From Solirubrobacter pauli (GTDB lineage Bacteria; Actinomycetota; Thermoleophilia; Solirubrobacterales; Solirubrobacteraceae): 64,000 nucleotides of DNA. A model generated the notes under the pieces. It ran no database searches and had not been told where the DNA came from. It saw nothing but the letters and a program-made list of their open reading frames with translations. This document shows positions 36,235 to 45,064 of the stretch, piece after piece; within the stretch, counting starts at the first letter, position 1, and every line of letters begins with the position of its first letter. The stretch lies in contig NZ_RBIL01000001.1 of assembly GCF_003633755.1 (NCBI RefSeq), forward strand, positions 1,969,426 through 2,033,425. The letters are read 5' to 3'. Both the position numbers and the translations under genes were made by a program.

Positions 36235-36278
36235 CCGCCGTCCCAGGGATGCAGAACGGAAGGGTCAGGGAGGCGCCG

Positions 36279-38444
36279 ATGCGGGGCTTGATGAGGACGC
36301 GACGCGCATGGATCGCGGCGATTGCCGCTGCGGTGTGCGTGCTGGCGGGGGCGAGCACGGCCTCGGCGGTCGTGCCGGGCGGGATCTACGGAACCACGTG
36401 CGTTGGCAACTCGACTGGTTGCGCCACCAACCTGAGCGCCACCGTCTTCAATGGCAACCCCGTGGACGTGGCGGTGTCCCCCGACGGTGCCAACGTCTAC
36501 GTGACGACCGCCGGTAACGGCCTGCTCGTGTTCGCGCGGGATGGAAATGGCCAGCTTGCCCTGGCGCAGTGCGTGCGTGACGTCGCCGGATGCACGCGCC
36601 TCACGGGCGCACTCGCGCTCAGCGGGCCGAACGCGGTCGTGGTCGCGCCCGACGGGGGCAGCGTCTACGTCGCCAACGGAACTGGGAATCGCGTGCTGGC
36701 GTTCGATCGAGGCGCGGGCGGGGTTCTGTCGCTCAAGGCCAGCGGAGGGTGCGTCTCGAACACGGGCGGCCCGGGCCTGCCGTGCACGTTCGCGCGGTCC
36801 ATGGTGACTCCGCAGGACCTCGCCGTCGCTGGCAACACCCTCTACGTCGCGTCGTCGGGCAGCAACAGCGTTACCGCCCTGCGCATCGGCGCGGGCGGCG
36901 GAATCATCGAAGCCGATGATGCAGGCAGCCTCGCCGCGTGCATGAACGTCGCACGGGTGAGTGGCTGCGCGCCCGCCCCCGGACTAACGGGGGCGCATTC
37001 GCTCGCCGTGACCGGGGACCGCGTTTACGTCGGCGGCATTCGCTCCATCGTCACCCTCGGTCGCGAAGGAAGCTCGGGGCTCATGGCCGCGGCCACGTGC
37101 GTCGGTTCGAACGTCACGAGTTGCACCGCGGTCGCCGACCTCGCCGGCGGGATCACGGACATCGCCGTGGCCCCCAACGGCCAGGTGTTGGGCGCGATGC
37201 CGCACATCACCACAACCGTGGACGGCCAGACCGTGGTGTCGGCCGTCGGCCGCGTCGTGGCCTTCGACCCTACGGTCAACGGCCTCGCCCGCCGCCTGGG
37301 AGTCACGGGCTGTGTGAGCCAGTCCGCGGTCGCCGGGCAGTGCACGGCAGGGCGAGGCCTCGGTTCCGCCGCCCCGGCACTGGCGACAACGACCGACGAC
37401 GAAGACGTCTATGTCGCCGGAAGCAGCGCCGTCGAGCTCAACCGCGGGGCCGGGGCCATCGCGCCGCGCACGGACGAACGCGGCTGCGTGCAGACGTCCC
37501 GGGTTGCTGGCTCCTGCTCGGGGTTCGCCGGCTTCGGGACGCCGACTGCTGTGGCGGTCGCTCGCGACGGTCGGCACGTCTACGCGCTCACGGCGGGCAA
37601 GGTCGTGACGCTGCGGCGCGACTCGAGCGGCCCGGTGTGCGACAACGTCGCCACCACGGTGCAACACGGCTCGGTGCAGACCCTTGGCATTCCGTGCTCG
37701 GACCCGGATGGGGATCCGCTCACGTTCGCTCCGGTCAACCCGCCGACGCTCGGGGCGATCGGGGGCTTCGACCATGACCTCCGGACGGTCAACTACGCGG
37801 CGCCGCTCGGCCAGAACGGCTCGACGACGATGAGCTTCCGCGCCGCCTATCGGGACGTCACGTACGGCACGTTCCAGGCCGACGGGTCGATCCAGGTGCA
37901 CGTCGTCGGCGCGCCGGTGGTGGTGCCCGCGGGCATCGACGCCGACGGCGACGGCTTCACGGCCGGCCAGGACTGCAACGACAACAACCGGAACATCCGG
38001 CCGGGCGCGGCGGAGATCAAGGGCAACAACATCGACGAGAACTGCGACGGCGTGGCCGAGCCGTTCCCGACGCTCGCCTCGGGCGTGCTGCACAACTGGT
38101 CCTACACGAAGCGCGGGACCACGTTCACGCTGCGGACGCTGAAGATCACGCAGCAGTTCCCGAAGGGCTGGAAGGTCACGATCAAGTGCTCCGGCAAGAA
38201 GTGCCCGTTCCGGTCCAAGACGCTGAAGGCGAGCAAGGTCAAGAAGGCGGCGTCGAGCGTGATCGCGTCGCTGACGAAGAAGCAGCGCCGGTTCCGGGTC
38301 GGGCAGACGGTCGAGATCTGGGTGAGCGCGCCGAGCTTCAACACGAAGGTGGCGCGGATCACGCTCAAGCGGGGCAAGCAGCCGGCGATCGTGCCGTACT
38401 GCGTCCTCCCGGGCTCGACGAAGGTGCAGAAGACCTGCACCTGA
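36279..38444 (+). CDS. Secreted beta-propeller protein with MopE-like metal motif
   Basis: 721 residues. ATG 36279 follows GGGAGG by 5 bp, giving signal peptide MRGLMRTRRAWIAAIAAA..ASTASA. The first ~420 residues are lactonase/YncE-like propeller blades (VDVAVSPDGANVYVTTAGN, VVAPDGGSVYVANGTGN, AVARDGRHVYALTAG) with one Cys pair recurring per blade. A beta domain follows, then the acidic motif DADGDGFTAGQDC...NNIDENCDG, which matches the calcium/copper-type MopE repeat. A basic C-terminal module (KKCPFRSKTLKASKVKKAA) ends the chain. Likely surface-exposed and metal-binding; function unknown. Confidence 0.82.
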   Translation: MRGLMRTRRAWIAAIAAAVCVLAGASTASAVVPGGIYGTTCVGNSTGCATNLSATVFNGNPVDVAVSPDGANVYVTTAGNGLLVFARDGNGQLALAQCVRDVAGCTRLTGALALSGPNAVVVAPDGGSVYVANGTGNRVLAFDRGAGGVLSLKASGGCVSNTGGPGLPCTFARSMVTPQDLAVAGNTLYVASSGSNSVTALRIGAGGGIIEADDAGSLAACMNVARVSGCAPAPGLTGAHSLAVTGDRVYVGGIRSIVTLGREGSSGLMAAATCVGSNVTSCTAVADLAGGITDIAVAPNGQVLGAMPHITTTVDGQTVVSAVGRVVAFDPTVNGLARRLGVTGCVSQSAVAGQCTAGRGLGSAAPALATTTDDEDVYVAGSSAVELNRGAGAIAPRTDERGCVQTSRVAGSCSGFAGFGTPTAVAVARDGRHVYALTAGKVVTLRRDSSGPVCDNVATTVQHGSVQTLGIPCSDPDGDPLTFAPVNPPTLGAIGGFDHDLRTVNYAAPLGQNGSTTMSFRAAYRDVTYGTFQADGSIQVHVVGAPVVVPAGIDADGDGFTAGQDCNDNNRNIRPGAAEIKGNNIDENCDGVAEPFPTLASGVLHNWSYTKRGTTFTLRTLKITQQFPKGWKVTIKCSGKKCPFRSKTLKASKVKKAASSVIASLTKKQRRFRVGQTVEIWVSAPSFNTKVARITLKRGKQPAIVPYCVLPGSTKVQKTCT

Positions 38445-38517: not shown

Positions 38518-39396
38518 ATGGTGTCTGTCGTGGTCTGCCTCGTCCTGGGCCTCGTGTTGGTCGCTGCCGCGGGACTGAAAGCGGCTGGTGGCCCGTCCGC
38601 GCGGGCCGCGCTCGGCACCTACGGCGTGCGTGACCCGCGCCTCGCGACCGCCGTCTGGGGCGGCCTGATCGCGGTCGAGCTGGCGCTCGGCGTGCTCGTC
38701 GGCGCCGGGCTCGAGTGGGCGCTGCGGGCCGCGGCGATCTTCCTGGCCGCGTTGACCGCGGCGCAGATCGCGGCGCTCGCCGCGGGGCGCGGCGGCTCGC
38801 CGTGCGCGTGCTACGGCGCCAAGGGCACGCTGTCCACGACCTCGGCCGGGCGGACGGCCGCGCTCGCCGCGGCGCTCGCGCTCGCGCCGCTGCTGCCTCG
38901 CACCGAGCCGAGCACGGAGACCTGGCTCGCCATCGGCCTCGCCATGGCGCTGCTCGGCCTGGTCGCGCTCGGCGTCGTCGTGCTCGCGCTCGCGCGGGAG
39001 GTCGGGATGCTGCGGCTGTCGGTCGCGCCGCAGGGTGCGCTCGAGGTCGACCACGAAGGCCCCGAGATCGGCGCGTTCATCGCGCTGGCCCACGACTTCG
39101 CGCTCGAGCCCGGCACGCTCGGCCTGGCCGTGTTCACCTCGGACGGCTGCGGCGTGTGCCGCGCGCTCAAGCCGACGATCGAGCGCTTCGGCCAACACCC
39201 GGCGGTCGAGCTGAAGACCTTCGACGAGGTCTTGGACAAGAACGCGTGGACGGCCGCCGACGTGCCCGGGAGCCCGTTCGCGGTCGCGCTGGACACCGAC
39301 GGCACCGTGCTTGCCAAGGGCACGTTCAACACGGGCGCGCAGCTGGAGACCGTCCTCGCGACGGCCGAGCGGCGGCGGGGAGCGGTGCGCGCGTGA
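38518..39396 (+). CDS. MauE-like membrane protein fused to a thioredoxin-like domain
   Basis: 292 residues. The N-terminal ~165 residues have four to five hydrophobic segments of the MauE/DoxX redox family, with SPCACYG (Cys96, Cys98) matching the CxC of MauE. The rest is a thioredoxin fold facing the outside, with CGVC at 211-214 and the cis-Pro region VPGSPFAVAL. In methylamine dehydrogenase operons MauE and MauD (thioredoxin-like) together form disulfides in the light chain; here both activities seem joined in one chain. Its TGA overlaps the GTG of the next gene (GTGA), pointing to a dedicated substrate. Confidence 0.85.
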   Translation: MVSVVVCLVLGLVLVAAAGLKAAGGPSARAALGTYGVRDPRLATAVWGGLIAVELALGVLVGAGLEWALRAAAIFLAALTAAQIAALAAGRGGSPCACYGAKGTLSTTSAGRTAALAAALALAPLLPRTEPSTETWLAIGLAMALLGLVALGVVVLALAREVGMLRLSVAPQGALEVDHEGPEIGAFIALAHDFALEPGTLGLAVFTSDGCGVCRALKPTIERFGQHPAVELKTFDEVLDKNAWTAADVPGSPFAVALDTDGTVLAKGTFNTGAQLETVLATAERRRGAVRA

Positions 39397-39962
39397 ACGG
39401 CGGCAAGTTCGCGGACGACGTCGCCGCCTCCAGCTCCCGCCGTGGCTTCCTCGCCCGTGTGGGCGCGGTCGTGATGGGCGTGACCGGCGCGAAGACCGTC
39501 GGGAGCCTCGTCGCGCCCGGCGAGGCGGAGGCGTACCACTTCTGCGGGCACATCTACACGACCGACTCGTGCCCGCACCCGACCGGCCTGCCGCGGATCG
39601 ACAGCAAGGGGTTGCCGATCCGCGCCAAGAACGGCCGGCCGGTCGACGACCTCGGCCGCTACGTCGACCGCGACGGCCTCCCGGTCGACGACGACGGCGA
39701 CCCGCTCACGGACGCGGACGGCGCGCTCCTGCCGGCCGCCACGCGCACCGCCGTGTGCGCGGCGACCGCCGACGTGTACGGCTTCAAGCCCCACGTCGAC
39801 GGCGCCTGGTACCGCTGCTGCGGCGGCCACGTGCGCAAGCTCGTCGACTGCTGCGGCTCCGTCCGGAACCGCATCAACGGCGACAAGGCGCTCACGGGCT
39901 ACTGCTACAAGGGCCGCAAGGTCTTCTGCGTCATGTACTACGACACCAAGGTCAAGTGCTAG
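39393..39962 (+). CDS. Tat-exported cysteine-rich MauA-like protein
   Basis: 189 residues, GTG start inside the stop of the MauE-Trx gene. The leader SSRRGFLARVGAVVMGV (13-30) is a twin-arginine signal, very like that of the methylamine dehydrogenase light chain. The mature part has ten Cys (51, 60, 122, 142, 143, 153, 154, 171, 179, 189), including CCGG and CCGS, again recalling MauA. Only one Trp (139) is present, so a tryptophan tryptophylquinone cannot form. Asp-rich VDRDGLPVDDDGDPLTDADG may bind metal. Likely a heavily disulfide-bonded extracytoplasmic protein matured by the preceding gene product; its activity is unknown. Confidence 0.72.
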   Translation: MNGGKFADDVAASSSRRGFLARVGAVVMGVTGAKTVGSLVAPGEAEAYHFCGHIYTTDSCPHPTGLPRIDSKGLPIRAKNGRPVDDLGRYVDRDGLPVDDDGDPLTDADGALLPAATRTAVCAATADVYGFKPHVDGAWYRCCGGHVRKLVDCCGSVRNRINGDKALTGYCYKGRKVFCVMYYDTKVKC

Positions 39963-41938
39963 GGCGTGGTCGTGGACAAGGTCAACGTCACCGCGCCTGA
40001 GTAGGTCCCGGAGCGCAACGGCTCCTCGGCGCCGATCGCTTGGCGGAACCCGACCGTCACCTCGTCGTTGGACGCGGGCGCAGTCCACGCCGCCTTCGAC
40101 AGCGTCACCGCGAGCGGTCGGGCGAGCGAGAACGCACCGTTGCGGAGCGTGACCGGGCCGGACGCGGTGAGCGTCGCGTCGCCCGCCGTGGAGATCACCG
40201 TCGCGGTCGTGGACGTGTCGTAGGTGGCGTCGCGGCCCGGGACGAACGTGCCGAACGTCGCCGGAGCGCCGAGCGCGAGGGACAACGTCGCCGGCACCGT
40301 GCCGCCGGCGGTGCCGTCCTCGACCACCGCACGGTCGAGCACGAGCGCGGCGAGCTTCCACTCCGCGCCGGCGTCGCCGCTGAGCGTGAGGTCGACCGGT
40401 CGACCGCCCGCGCCGCCGTCGAGCACGAAGCGCTCCCACGCGAACTCGCGCGCCTTCAGCGCGGCGCCCGGGCCGACGAGGGTCCGCCCGTCGCTGCGCA
40501 CGATCAACGACCCGGTCGCGGCGGTGACGTCGCCGCGCAGGAGCGCGACGCGGTGCTTGCCGGGCGGGACCGACACGCGCAGCGTCCGCTCGGCGGAGGC
40601 GTACACGTGGTCGCGCCGCAGCGCGTCCGAGCCGGCGCCGCGGTCACGGCCGGTCGGCGTCGCACCGACCCAGCCCGCGGTGAGGCCGGCGTTCCAGACG
40701 TCGGCCGGCGAGACGCGCGTCCAGCCGCCGATGATCACCACGGACGACGGCGTGCCGAAGTCCCGCGCCTGCTCGAACACCGGGGCGTCAGGCTTGACCC
40801 ACACCGTCGCGGTCGGCGCGCCCTCGACCTGGCCGCCGCCGACGGGCGCGGCACGCCCCGTGAGCGTCACCTCGGGCTGCACGCCCGGCTCCGGGAACGG
40901 CATCGCGGGCGGCGTCACGGGCACGCTGACGGGGAGCGTCCGGCCGGGCGCGATCGTGACCCGCACGGGCTTGACGGTCCAGCCCGCGGGCGCGTCCACC
41001 GACACGTCGACCTCGAGCGGGTCGTTCGTCCAGTTGCCCGCGGTGACGGTCGCGTTGACCGGCTGGCCGGCGAACAGGTCGTTCGGCACGGCGATCGCCG
41101 AGGCGCTCGCCGCGGGCACGTCGACCGGCACGCCGATCGGGATGAGCTCCGCGGCCGCGGCGAAGTTGTTGCGCCCGCCGGTGATCGTCAGCCGGATCTT
41201 GCGGACGCCACGCGCCGGGGTGGTGAGCTTGGCCGTCTTCATCAGCTCCGACGCGCCCCACGTGCTGGTCCGGACGTCGGTGAAGGTCGTGCCGTTCGTG
41301 CTGACGGCCATCGTGTACGCGTTGATGTGGCCGTTCAGGAGGCCGTCGAAGCGCGGCTGGTAGCGCAGCTCGGTGATGTCGTAGACCCCGCCGAGGTCCA
41401 ACGTGATCGACTGAGGCAGGCTGCCCGCGGCCGAGCGCCAGATCGTGGCGGGGTCGCCGTCGACCGCCTTGGAGGCGTCGTCGCTGCCCTGCAGGCTCGT
41501 GGCCGTCGCCGTCATGCGCCCGTACGGCACGCACTGTGCCGCGGGGTCCGAGACGACCTTCACGGGCGTGGAGGCCTGCACCTTGTCCCCCAGCTGGTAG
41601 CCGAGCTCGTAGTCGCCGACGCGGGCGTCGGGCGCGACCCGCACCTGGATCGGCGTGGCGACGTCGGCTCCGACCGGCGTGTAGCTCGACCATTGCCGTC
41701 GCGATGGCTGCAAGGGCCCGGTCGGCTTGAGGAACAGGTCGCCGTACTGATGGTCGGCGGTGGTGTTGCGGAGGCTCACGCGGAGCTGCTCGAAGCCGAT
41801 GCAGCGCAGGATCTCGAGCCGGTCGACGCTCGGCGCGAGCTGGACGCGGTCGTCCTCGCCGCCGGGCAAGCCGACGGCCGTGCCGTGCAGCGCGGCAACG
41901 GCGAGCGAGAGCGCCGTGAAGCCGATGACGCGCCTCAT
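39959..41938 (-). CDS. Secreted protein with F5/8 type C (discoidin) domain
   Basis: 659 residues. A signal peptide (MRRVIGFTALSLAVAALHGTA) is followed by a beta domain, a discoidin-like carbohydrate-binding domain (about 140-280: DDASKAVDGDPATIWRS, QSITLDLGGVYDITELRYQP, RKIRLTITGG), an alpha-galactosidase NEW3-like segment (DAPAGWTVKPVRVTIAPG), and a C-terminal module GTVPATLSLALGAP to SGAVTLTLSTTTP that recurs at 63539. It is coupled to the PhoD gene (ATGA), so both probably act together outside the cell on a polysaccharide or glycoconjugate. The long in-frame upstream extension is antisense to phoD and rejected. Confidence 0.85.
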   Translation of the reverse strand: MRRVIGFTALSLAVAALHGTAVGLPGGEDDRVQLAPSVDRLEILRCIGFEQLRVSLRNTTADHQYGDLFLKPTGPLQPSRRQWSSYTPVGADVATPIQVRVAPDARVGDYELGYQLGDKVQASTPVKVVSDPAAQCVPYGRMTATATSLQGSDDASKAVDGDPATIWRSAAGSLPQSITLDLGGVYDITELRYQPRFDGLLNGHINAYTMAVSTNGTTFTDVRTSTWGASELMKTAKLTTPARGVRKIRLTITGGRNNFAAAAELIPIGVPVDVPAASASAIAVPNDLFAGQPVNATVTAGNWTNDPLEVDVSVDAPAGWTVKPVRVTIAPGRTLPVSVPVTPPAMPFPEPGVQPEVTLTGRAAPVGGGQVEGAPTATVWVKPDAPVFEQARDFGTPSSVVIIGGWTRVSPADVWNAGLTAGWVGATPTGRDRGAGSDALRRDHVYASAERTLRVSVPPGKHRVALLRGDVTAATGSLIVRSDGRTLVGPGAALKAREFAWERFVLDGGAGGRPVDLTLSGDAGAEWKLAALVLDRAVVEDGTAGGTVPATLSLALGAPATFGTFVPGRDATYDTSTTATVISTAGDATLTASGPVTLRNGAFSLARPLAVTLSKAAWTAPASNDEVTVGFRQAIGAEEPLRSGTYSGAVTLTLSTTTP

Positions 41939-43521
41939 GCCGCCTCCAGCTCCGGGTTGCCGCTCTCGACGACGTAGCTCGCGCGGGTCGCGACCGGCGC
42001 GTCCGCGCGGGTGATGTACGGCACGACCCGGTAGTCCGTGCGCCACTCGTCCGGAGTGACGGTGCACGTGACGTAGCCGCGTTGGCTCGTGGTCATCCGC
42101 AGGTGCGGGTTGGCCGCGTACAGGTTGGCGGCGTTCGACGTCTCCTCGGTGCCGTCGCCGGCGCTGGAGATCGACGAGCAGGTGAACTCGGGCGCGACGA
42201 TCTTCGCGTCCGCCTTCCGGTAGTCGCCCTTGACGTGGCTCGCCTGGTGGCGGTGGACGTCGCCGCAGAGCACGACCGGGTTGGCGACCTTGCGCTGCTC
42301 GATCGCGTCGACGAGCCGGATGCGGTTGGCCGCGTAGCCGTCCCAGGAGTCGTTGCCGACGGTGACCGCCGAGCCCGGGTCGGAGTCGAGCTGGCCCATC
42401 AGCACCTGCTGGGCGAGCACGTTCCAGCGCGCCGGTGAGGCGCTCAGCCCGTCCAGCAGCCACTGCTCCTGCGTGGCGCCCATGATGGTGCGGGCCTCGT
42501 CGAAGCGCGCGTTGCCGGTGACCTGCGCGCTGCGGTATTGGCGCGTGTCGAGCACGTTGAACTCGACAAGGTCGCCGTAGCGGAAGCGGCGGTAGAGCTG
42601 CAGGTCCTTGCCCTTGGGCTGCTGCAGCGGCCGCAGCGGCATGTGCTCCCAGTACGCGCGGTAGGCGTTCGCGCGCCGGACCAGGAAGGCGGCCTCGGCG
42701 TCGCCGGCCGGCGTCGTCATGTCGGCGTAGTTGTTGACGACCTCGTGGTCGTCCCAGGTGACGACGAACGGCGCGACGGCGTGCGCGGCCTGCAGGTCCG
42801 GGTCGGTCTTGTAGAGCGCGTACCGCTGCCGGTACTGGTCCAGGCTCTCGGTCGGGACCTGCGCGGAAGCCGGGATCGGCGTGTTGCGGGGGCCGCCGAC
42901 GGGATCGGTCGCGAACTCGTAGATGTAGTCGCCGAGGTGCAGGACGACGTCCGGGTGCTCGTTCGCCAGGTGCCGATAGGCGGTGTAGAAGCCCGCGTGC
43001 CAGCTCTGGCAGGACACGAACGCGAGCTTGAGGCTGCGGTTGCCGGCCGCGGGCGCGGTCAGCGTGCGGCCGACCGGGCTGCGCTCGCCGTCGGCGACGA
43101 AGCGGTAGAAGTACTCGCGGCCCGGCTCGAGGCCCTTGAGGTCCACGTGCACGCTGTGCGCGAACTCGGGTCGTGCCACCGCGGTGCCGGTCTGCACGAC
43201 CTTCGTGAACGCCTCGTCGTGCGCGAGCTCCCACCGCACGTCCACCGGCGTGTACGGCATCCCGCCGAACGGGTCGAGCGCGTCGGGCGCGAGCCGCGTC
43301 CACAGCACGACCGAGTCCGGCAGTGGATCGCCCGAGGCGACGCCCAGCGTGAACGGGTAGCCGCCGAGCGTGCTCGCCTTCGAGTACGCGGTGCCCGTCC
43401 CCGGCAGCCGCGAGCTGAAGGCGAGGACCGCCGCGGCGCCCGCCAGTGTGAGAAACCGTCGCCTGGTGCCCAGGAGGGCCTCAGGCCTGGCGTCCGCCAG
43501 CTCATCCGTGAACCGCTGCAT
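41935..43521 (-). CDS. PhoD-like alkaline phosphatase/phosphodiesterase
   Basis: 528 residues. The Tat signal TRRRFLTLAGAAAVLAF (near residues 19-35) targets it outside. The PhoD N-terminal domain (FTLGVASGDPLPDSVVLWTRL) is followed by the metallophosphatase core with CQSWHAGFYTAY, HLGDYIYE, VTWDDHEVVNNYA and LCGDVHRHQ. PhoD enzymes use Ca2+ and Fe3+ to release phosphate from phosphodiesters such as teichoic acids, suggesting phosphate scavenging. No clear PHO box was identified. It is the first gene of a two-gene operon with the discoidin protein. Confidence 0.93.
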   Translation of the reverse strand: MQRFTDELADARPEALLGTRRRFLTLAGAAAVLAFSSRLPGTGTAYSKASTLGGYPFTLGVASGDPLPDSVVLWTRLAPDALDPFGGMPYTPVDVRWELAHDEAFTKVVQTGTAVARPEFAHSVHVDLKGLEPGREYFYRFVADGERSPVGRTLTAPAAGNRSLKLAFVSCQSWHAGFYTAYRHLANEHPDVVLHLGDYIYEFATDPVGGPRNTPIPASAQVPTESLDQYRQRYALYKTDPDLQAAHAVAPFVVTWDDHEVVNNYADMTTPAGDAEAAFLVRRANAYRAYWEHMPLRPLQQPKGKDLQLYRRFRYGDLVEFNVLDTRQYRSAQVTGNARFDEARTIMGATQEQWLLDGLSASPARWNVLAQQVLMGQLDSDPGSAVTVGNDSWDGYAANRIRLVDAIEQRKVANPVVLCGDVHRHQASHVKGDYRKADAKIVAPEFTCSSISSAGDGTEETSNAANLYAANPHLRMTTSQRGYVTCTVTPDEWRTDYRVVPYITRADAPVATRASYVVESGNPELEAA

Positions 43522-43624
43522 GCAACCCCGCTTCGTGATCGACCGACGCGGGAGTCTGCGAGTGGGCGCGTGCGCCGTGGTTACGCGGCCGTGAACGGGG
43601 GAGCGCTCCGTAAGCTGGTCGACA

Positions 43625-45064
43625 ATGGTCGAAGTGACGTTGATCGCGCTGGCGCTGGTCGCCGGCGTCACCGGCGCGTGGTCGCCGTGCGGGTTCTCGA
43701 TGGTCGAGACCCTGGCGCCGTCGGGCTACGCCGGGCGGATGCGGGTGACCGTCGTGGCGTGCACGACATTCGCGGCCGGCGCGCTCGTGGGCGGCGTGAT
43801 CACGTTCGGCGGGCTCGCGCTCGTGGGCTCGTGGCTCGGCGCCGCGGCGCCCGCGGCCGCCGCGCTGATCGCGCTGGCCGCCGCCGTCGGTGAGGCGCGC
43901 GGGGCGCGGATCATGCCGCAGGTCCGCCGCCAGGTGCCCGAGTCGTGGCGGCGCGTGCTGGCCGTGCCGCTGGCCGCCGGGCTGTACGGCGTGCTGCTCG
44001 GCCTCGGCTTCACGACCTTCATCCTCACGTTCGCCGTGTGGGCGCTCGCGGGCGTGTCCGTCGCGCTCGGCGACCCGGCGCTGGGACTGGCCGTCGGCGT
44101 CGCGTTCGGCGTCGGGCGAACGTTGCCGGTGGTCGTGCTCGCGCCGTTCGGCGGCGGCGCGGCCCACGCCGCGATGGCCGAGGAGCCCCGGATCCTGCGT
44201 TCGCTCAGGCTCGCCGACGCGGCCGCGCTGGCCGTAGTGGCCGTCAGCCTGTTCGCCGCTCCCGCCCAGGCGCAGTCGGTGAGCGCGACCGCGATCGGCT
44301 TCGCCGACCCGAGCGTGGACGGCCAGACGCTCGCCCTCCACCGCCCCGGCGGCTTCGGCGAGCTCCGCGGCCCGGGCGGGGTGCAGCCGGTCGCCGGCAA
44401 CCACCCGGCGGTCGGCGGCGGGCGCCAGGCCTGGATCGAGAACGGCCACGTCGTCGTCTTCGGCGTGCAAGCCTTCTCCGCCCCGGAGGCCGACAGCGTC
44501 GCCGTGTCCAACACCTTCGTCGTCTGGCGCCAGGGTGCCGAGCTGTGGGCCGCGTCGCTGACGGACCTCACGCCGCGCCAGGTCGTGGTCGGCGCGGTCG
44601 GCCGCCCGGCGCTGAGCGGCAACCTCCTCGTGTACGACGTGGACGGCCGCATCGAGTCGGTCGACCTCGCGACCGGCGTCCGCACGATGCTCCGCCGCGA
44701 AGCCCGCGCCCAGCTCCGCGGCCCGTCGATCGTCGGCCTGGAGCTGACCTACGTCCGCGCCACCTACTCGCGCCAGCAGGTCCGCATCGGCCGGCTGCGG
44801 CTTCAGCGGGTCGCCAGCGACCAGGCGATCTACGGCACGTACCCCACCGCCCGCCGCGACGCCGGCCACGAGCCGAACCGCTTCCCGGCCAAGGGGCACA
44901 TCAACAAGCCGCTGTGGGAGCGGCCGCCGGCGGGCGTGCAGGACACGTTGACCACGACGGCGGCGAACTCGTCGGCCGTGTGGGTGACGCGCGTGCGCAA
45001 GCGCCCGGGGCAGGTCCCGTTCGCGACGGTGCTGGTCGTGCCGCGGGTCGCCGCGAACGGCTGA
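43625..45064 (+). CDS. CcdA-like membrane domain fused to extracytoplasmic propeller domain
   Basis: 479 residues. Six hydrophobic segments fill residues 1-213, starting with GAWSPCGFSMVE (SPCG 20-23), which resembles CcdA/DsbD-type thiol carriers; the second Cys is at 46, not in TM4 as in CcdA. The last segment ends SLFAAPAQAQ (207-217), which looks like a signal peptide with cleavage after 216. Residues ~218-479 form a TolB-like beta-propeller domain (VAVSNTFVVWRQGAELWAAS). TAAGCT... does not fit, but TAAGCT's true form TAAGCT (43611-43616) lies 8 bp before the ATG as a candidate -10. It is divergent to phoD. Function unknown; a thiol-relay or MauF-like role is inference. Confidence 0.72.
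   Translation: MVEVTLIALALVAGVTGAWSPCGFSMVETLAPSGYAGRMRVTVVACTTFAAGALVGGVITFGGLALVGSWLGAAAPAAAALIALAAAVGEARGARIMPQVRRQVPESWRRVLAVPLAAGLYGVLLGLGFTTFILTFAVWALAGVSVALGDPALGLAVGVAFGVGRTLPVVVLAPFGGGAAHAAMAEEPRILRSLRLADAAALAVVAVSLFAAPAQAQSVSATAIGFADPSVDGQTLALHRPGGFGELRGPGGVQPVAGNHPAVGGGRQAWIENGHVVVFGVQAFSAPEADSVAVSNTFVVWRQGAELWAASLTDLTPRQVVVGAVGRPALSGNLLVYDVDGRIESVDLATGVRTMLRREARAQLRGPSIVGLELTYVRATYSRQQVRIGRLRLQRVASDQAIYGTYPTARRDAGHEPNRFPAKGHINKPLWERPPAGVQDTLTTTAANSSAVWVTRVRKRPGQVPFATVLVVPRVAANG

Follow-up and report, generated by a model that had tools for sequence, protein, structure and literature searches.

A probable compact mau-type gene set in Solirubrobacter pauli, with a likely relative of quinone-enzyme light chains and a MauF predicted to contain selenocysteine in related genomes

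We analyzed a window of 64,000 nucleotides from the 7.1 Mb genome of the soil actinobacterium Solirubrobacter pauli (G000 in our set; contig NZ_RBIL01000001.1, positions 1,969,426 to 2,033,425) around two overlapping plus-strand genes, which a preliminary description had read as a MauE-MauD-like fusion coupled to a MauA-like protein unable to form tryptophan tryptophylquinone (TTQ). Gene 1 (38518..39396; ATG start at 38518, TGA stop at 39394-39396) encodes a membrane chain of 292 residues, in which a MauE domain with a CAC motif (SPCACYG) is followed by one further helix and a TlpA/thioredoxin-like MauD domain with a CGVC motif. The first domain matches PF07291 at E = 4.6e-10 (40.3 bits against a cut-off of 27) and, with its CxC motif, identifies as MauE; the second matches the MauD family TIGR02661 at E = 3.7e-11, with 42.8 bits lying under the equivalog cut-off of 188.6, and is, judged by its sequence, related at the family level and not an equivalog. 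Gene 2 (39393..39962; GTG start at 39393, TAG stop at 39960-39962) shares a GTGA overlap with the stop of gene 1 and encodes 189 residues. Its twin-arginine translocation (Tat) leader (approximately residues 1–47) contains SSSRRGFL, and the mature part (39534-39959; 142 residues) holds all ten Cys and the only Trp. The fusion, the overlap, and the composition are exactly as had been described.

Searches with the gene 2 protein (P0002) gave matches in 43 of 299 genomes of the class at E ≤ 0.01 (37 long matches, one in G296 split into two pieces, and five weak local matches) and in 27 of 396 genomes of the phylum at E ≤ 0.001, while plasmids searched with it gave none. The closest named relatives are Solirubrobacter species, and full-length relatives occur across Thermoleophilia and in two more actinobacterial families. 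We assembled 55 extended loci, which together with the window make 56; G287, G363, G509, and the five weak matches were excluded. Because full-length relatives exist and all ten Cys are invariant in the 56 aligned sequences, the open frame of gene 2 is not a chance one. The preliminary description had staked its reading on conservation of the pair, and gene 1 indeed precedes gene 2 in 54 of the 55 loci where its position is visible, one of the 54 being broken; in the remaining locus (L110) the contig ends within the start of gene 2.

An all-against-all comparison of the loci revealed a third gene, on the same strand and after gene 2, in nearly all of them. The window homologue (43625..45064, plus strand) lies 3.7 kb downstream of gene 2 and encodes a membrane domain (approximately residues 1–215) followed by a six-bladed beta-propeller (approximately 216–475). 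The family profile of the membrane domain aligned with Paracoccus denitrificans MauF over 208 columns, SPCG motif included (hhalign probability 99.5, E = 1.2e-22), and hmmsearch of this profile against the same protein gave 118 bits. By sequence comparison the domain is thus MauF; Pfam returned a mere hint of DsbD, except in the relative from genome G580 (DsbD_2, E = 1.1e-10). In the AlphaFold2 (AF2) model of the third protein, which has a mean predicted local distance difference test (pLDDT) score of 88.6, the C-terminal half superimposes on the Pizza6 propeller 6ren_A with Z = 20.8 (215 residues aligned, root mean square deviation [rmsd] 3.2). The stretch that parts the third gene from the pair (39963..43624) contains a PhoD-type phosphatase gene (41935-43671, minus strand; PF09423, E = 2.3e-113) and another minus-strand frame. 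This PhoD-type insertion, which accounts for the distance in the window, is missing in Solirubrobacter soli and Ca. S. pratensis, in which nothing separates gene 2 from the third gene. From the GYC motif of gene 2 to the SPCG codon, the distance is 113 nt in L117 and L118 and about 3.75 kb in L114–L116.

Since the pair is joined by a gene with a MauF domain and a six-bladed propeller, we interpret it as two of the three genes of a compact mau-type set consisting of MauE-MauD, a MauA-like light chain, and MauF-propeller, an explanation that as a whole we consider quite probable. On this interpretation the set would work like a mau set, to which MauE, MauF, and, at the family level, MauD belong. 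As in the P. denitrificans mau cluster (mauFBEDA and others), there are MauF, MauE, MauD, a Cys-rich small subunit with a Tat leader, and a propeller partner, and MauD adjoins the MauA-like gene. In contrast to that cluster, the window set has MauE-MauD and MauF-propeller fusions, a propeller without a MauB match, and a light chain with ten Cys and no second Trp; amicyanin, MauJ, MauG, MauM, and MauN were not recognized beside it, the neighbors not having been searched with their profiles. Three elements go beyond the preliminary description: the MauF-propeller gene, a predicted selenocysteine (Sec) in the MauF of relatives, and the apparent equivalence of the lone Trp to Trp57 of TTQ enzymes.

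The predicted Sec concerns the SPCG site of MauF, whose Cys codon in the window is TGC (43688..43690, plus strand). With a search pattern that admitted Cys or a stop at this site, the codon could be read in 53 of the 56 loci and was TGA in 38, TGC in 13, and TGT in 2, with no TAA or TAG. Public contigs, a set that overlaps the main one and is not independent of it, gave 32 TGA, 20 TGC, and 2 TGT in the 54 loci read of 62. From these sequences we predict that MauF is a selenoprotein family, with Sec in 38 of 53 loci and Cys in the window. Alternatively, the TGA could be a true stop, the gene starting at an ATG four codons later, a reading to which we give very little credence. The annotation of Thermomicrobium roseum does begin at that later ATG. 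However, a true stop would not account for the use of TGA alone, never TAA or TAG, or for the presence of Cys at this position in the remaining 15 loci and in MauF. Furthermore, over the 54 nt before the TGA, differences at codon positions 1–3 (0.396, 0.327, and 0.541) are most frequent at the third, a pattern that also speaks against a stop. The frame is open over those 54 nt in 38 of 38 loci; because a second frame is equally free of stops in all 38, a point on the side of a true stop, this openness in itself says little.

A hairpin downstream of the site separates the two forms and likewise argues against a true stop. It spans positions +29 to +47, with 7 base pairs and a 5-nt loop, 32 nt after the UGA. 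In the 38 TGA forms 91.4% of its cells are paired, against 41–66% in slid controls, and covariation is 0.319, against 0.177 in shuffled alignments (0 of 500 shuffles as high), with compensatory changes in five of the seven pairs. The 15 Cys forms, by comparison, are 34.3% paired, the same as shuffles. All seven pairs are present in 26 of the 38 TGA forms, L060, L061, and L065 forming the hairpin poorly in that register, and in 37 of 38 the first two loop positions have G. As judged from sequence, the hairpin fits the bacterial model of the selenocysteine insertion sequence (SECIS) as given in PMC13188914 (loop of 3–9 nt, G in the first two places, 16–37 nt after the UGA). The RNAalifold consensus of the TGA set predicts four of the seven pairs only. 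Synonymous-codon shuffles gave mean energy z-scores of -1.14 at TGA sites and -0.72 at Cys sites; because this difference is modest, folding energy alone lacks the power to separate the two kinds of site, which base pairing does.

We next consider the Sec machinery, for which we required tRNA-Sec matches of at least 58 bits (the Rfam threshold is 47) and discounted those of 47–54 bits. Such a tRNA-Sec or a SelB over cut-off was found in 30 of 38 TGA genomes and 9 of 15 Cys genomes, a difference that is not significant (p = 0.18) and to that extent favors a true stop, as do the three of 38 TGA genomes that show neither. When SelB fragments at contig ends or in split frames are counted, 35 of the 38 TGA genomes have the machinery (p = 0.011). 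The base rate of tRNA-Sec is 127 of 299 genomes of the class, and the genome of the window, despite the Cys form of its MauF, encodes both a tRNA-Sec (58.1 bits) and a SelB (317.9 bits). As side observations, selB stands 1.4 kb before gene 2 in G131 and G155 (L083 and L082), and in the Cys-form genome G201 (L062) a tRNA-Sec stands 3.7 kb from gene 2; across these three loci, selB (G155, G131) or tRNA-Sec (G131, G201) occurs on the same contig within 1.4–8 kb of gene 2.

MauF is not among the selenoprotein families catalogued in Table 1 of PMC13188914. The nearest DsbD-type entry in that table is TsoB, a rhodanese/DsbD fusion-like selenoprotein (NF045694) whose motif is UxxxxU, in contrast to the single U of SPUG in the MauF relatives; six third proteins scanned gave no NCBIfam Tso match. 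We recognized no paper on a MauF selenoprotein or on this light-chain family in the literature searched, from which most subscription journals were absent. MauF would be an addition to the known selenoprotein families and would give selenium a part in how quinone enzymes mature, a connection that we did not find in that literature. In addition, the exchange of Sec and Cys at one codon points to a working site, so that the role of MauF, so far vague, becomes testable.

The gene 2 protein is best regarded as a light-chain relative and not a MauA. Its leader had been said to recall that of MauA, and hhalign of the gene 2 family with five Mau/Aau light chains bears this out (probability 96, E = 2e-9), the match covering the leader only. 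The profile of the mature family, set against five canonical light chains, gave no signal. A link appeared through T. roseum, which tblastn with MauA uncovered: its plasmid (NC_011961.1) holds MauA-like proteins with both Trp, along with propeller-like frames, a frame with a C-terminal MauE, MauD, and a MauF with an in-frame TGA. A profile of seven light chains then matched five of the 396 phylum genomes, one of them strongly (G580, E = 7.9e-14), where a cluster combines MauD, a MauA-like protein with both Trp, MauF with TGA, a heavy chain of methylamine dehydrogenase (MADH; PF06433, E = 2.9e-7), and MauE, and where SelB and tRNA-Sec lie side by side. The gene 2 family core aligned with the T. 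roseum pair at E = 1.1e-4, its score of 28.0 exceeding the highest of 100 column-permuted controls (18.3), and with three intermediates at a score of 26.4, above the highest of 200 such controls (20.6). Like the window set, the T. roseum and G580 clusters group a MauA-like protein with MauD, MauE, propellers, and a MauF, whose SPCG codon, TGC in the window, is TGA in both; they differ from it in light chains that keep both Trp and, in G580, in a recognizable MADH heavy chain.

At the SPCG site of MauF, T. roseum has TGA at L175:7744-7746. Because the annotated gene TRD_RS11410 starts after this in-frame TGA, the record probably truncates a selenoprotein. The plasmid record lacks SelB and tRNA-Sec over cut-off, which would suit a true stop, this search having covered the plasmid and not the chromosome. 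Separately, T. roseum has another MauA-like gene at about 2780-3200 of L175, which is apparently split between two frames; beside it are a long frame ending in MauE and several hypothetical proteins that resemble propellers.

In the register of these alignments, Trp139 of gene 2 (codon 39807..39809) falls on Trp57 of the light chains, and Asp152-Cys153-Cys154 (Asp152 codon 39846..39848) on Asp76-Cys77-Cys78, of which Asp76 is a catalytic residue of MADH. Tyr170-Cys171 (Tyr170 codon 39900..39902) falls on Trp108-Cys109 by hhalign realignment and Cys spacing, with low confidence and more weakly than the Trp139 match. All three codons are on the plus strand. The lone Trp139 therefore appears, from these alignments, to be the equivalent of Trp57 in TTQ. 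Since an invariant Tyr aligns with the Trp108 position and the protein has a single Trp, TTQ cannot form, as the preliminary description had claimed. TTQ light chains have twelve Cys in six disulfides. The window family shares with the MauA/AauA light chains (PF02975, TIGR02659) the leader and, via the intermediates, the Trp57 and Asp76 equivalents, and may resemble them in fold, where the match is moderate; it differs in lying below recognition, in Tyr for Trp108, in an extra variable middle region, and in having ten Cys, with fewer in the N-terminal part by alignment.

The structural comparison with MauA that had been proposed gave a moderate match; with the pair conserved and the predicted structure not unrelated to MauA, the reading of the preliminary description is supported. 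The AF2 model of gene 2 has a pLDDT of 91.7, and when VIA-align was applied to the top 1000 chains ranked by Foldseek, the nine best of the 16 entries listed were TTQ light chains, with Z of 3.7–4.6. The best is 2agz_H of aromatic amine dehydrogenase (AADH; Z = 4.6, 73 residues aligned, rmsd 2.6), and 1mda_L reaches Z = 4.0 (72 aligned, rmsd 3.3). With Foldseek by itself, no match reached E ≤ 0.001, and the best 50 listed included no light chain. TIGR02659 matched the gene 2 protein with 11.1 bits (cut-off 196.85), in the leader only, and PDB sequence searches with the protein and the family profile returned chance matches or none. A zinc finger (PF20173) was rejected for the family as weak, having matched four of 30 members with a best E of 0.00093.

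Several observations weigh against reading the locus as a mau-type set with a light-chain relative. A Z of 4.6 is low, and the unrelated 1cjx_A reaches 3.7, tied with the last TTQ entry. No PF02975 match was obtained for the gene 2 protein at E = 10, nor in the genome. Comparison with a profile of canonical MauA only is at null level, with 59 of 100 permutations as high, so that the link to light chains runs through the three intermediates. The window propeller has no Pfam hit at E ≤ 1, and hence none to MauB (PF06433), its six blades being assigned by best matches. No substrate and no amine-oxidation context were seen. Individual loci also depart from the pattern. In L090 the stretch of about 0.4 kb preceding gene 2 shows no MauD; in L108 (G403) gene 1 is broken up among three frames with neither MauF nor propeller nearby, this locus being a decaying module or the product of assembly errors. 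The genomes of groups f13 and f19 have no fused propeller: in f13 loci MauF stands alone and no MauE was located, while the two f19 proteins scanned carry a C-terminal MauE domain on MauF (PF07291, E = 2.4e-24 and 6.5e-19), and a CxC[FYW]G motif lies downstream in six of seven f19 loci. Finally, MauE, MauD, and the MauA-like protein form a single open frame in three genomes of one genus (L063, L064, and L067, the last cut by the contig start), with no near start codon before the RR motif. With a simple topology, this three-part fusion could not have its thioredoxin part and its light-chain part both outside the membrane, which is at odds with Tat export combined with an outside MauD. In favor of a mau-type set, on the other hand, is the domain shuffling within the same gene set, placing MauE on MauF or joining MauE-MauD to the MauA-like protein.

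A different origin for the pair would be a secreted Cys-rich peptide system that borrowed mauE and mauD, like the Streptomyces candidates for ribosomally synthesized and post-translationally modified peptides with at least eight Cys. MauE homologues stand beside Cys-rich precursors in three candidate families, one of them with MauD, according to PMC7794033. Here, however, MauF and the propeller are also present, the 142-residue folded chain is conserved end to end, and leader and core both link to light chains, which makes such an origin most improbable.

We then asked what the conserved residues imply for a cofactor. Invariant in 56 of 56 sequences are the ten Cys, Trp139, Tyr170, Asp152, His53, Arg141, Arg148, Arg160, and NGD 162–164; Trp139 and Tyr170 are the only invariant Trp and Tyr, Tyr182 being present in 55. 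That Trp, Tyr, and Asp are retained without exception at TTQ positions suggests that the cofactor has changed or that the core is frozen, and we hold the frozen core somewhat likelier. One reading is that the protein has lost its cofactor and now serves, held by the propeller and rich in disulfides, for binding, sensing, or structure, a serious possibility to which we assign somewhat less than an even chance. Its single Trp is consistent with such a loss, as are the middle region with Asp/Gly repeats (approximately residues 63–120), which is variable and short in f13 and f19, and two genomes (L087, L089) in which the membrane part of MauF is gone and the propeller is kept as a protein of its own that looks secreted. 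Arguing the other way, Trp139, Tyr170, and Asp152 never vary, and MauE, MauD, and MauF are maintained in nearly all loci.

Alternatively, the MauA-like protein may be a live redox enzyme or electron carrier, in which Trp139 and Tyr170 make up a Trp-Tyr counterpart of TTQ and Asp152 serves as catalytic base; we regard this as possible and rather doubtful. In its favor are the invariance of this Trp and Tyr and their alignment, with Asp152, to Trp57, Trp108, and Asp76. The genome also contains a single MauG-type di-haem gene (PF03150, E = 3.7e-44; CCP_MauG at E = 1.6e-44 in the Pfam scan of the stretch), at G000:C1:203258-203725 (L190), whose product is a possible modifying enzyme on the basis of this match; this gene, the only CCP_MauG match in the genome at E ≤ 0.01, is unlinked, 1.8 Mb from the module. 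However, no MauG gene was recognized beside the module, whose neighbors were not searched with its profile; the match of Tyr170 with Trp108 comes from a low-confidence realignment and Cys spacing; and invariance suits a structural core equally well. Either way, the family is a natural experiment on TTQ, with one Trp kept and the other swapped for an invariant Tyr.

Sequence comparison establishes the gene set and how far it is conserved, identifies MauE and MauF as such and MauD at the family level, and shows the Sec-or-Cys site of MauF; a working scheme for the mau-type set can be proposed. MauE and MauD are involved in MADH maturation, and MauE has been speculated to form the light-chain disulfides, according to PMC7794033. 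In our scheme, the MauA-like chain would be exported by Tat, and MauD, MauE, and MauF would act in the membrane as a thiol or selenol relay, which introduces the five disulfides of the chain and passes electrons from the nascent disulfides into the membrane, the Sec or Cys of MauF being one relay point. The folded chain would dock on the MauF propeller as MauA does on MauB, giving a membrane-tethered two-part unit. With the equivalents of Trp57 and Asp76 kept and Tyr in place of Trp108, its site could be a Trp-Tyr redox center or a structural relic. The most far-reaching version, in which the light chain, tethered to the membrane by the MauF-borne propeller, has a new protein-derived Trp-Tyr quinone and is matured by a MauF-MauE-MauD relay that depends on selenium, we consider unlikely. 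If true, this would be the third kind of tryptophan-derived quinone, after TTQ and cysteine tryptophylquinone (CTQ).

In the two f13/f19 loci scanned, the neighboring genes look unrelated (Cpn60, phosphodiesterase, DUF3566, acetyltransferase), one gene having only sub-cut-off hits and two having none. Just upstream of gene 1 in the window (36249-38441) lies a gene, not seen within the conserved set, for a secreted-looking protein of 731 residues, in which propeller repeats of the lactonase/NHL type occur together with a copper-binding motif of MopE (PF11617, E = 7.3e-10).
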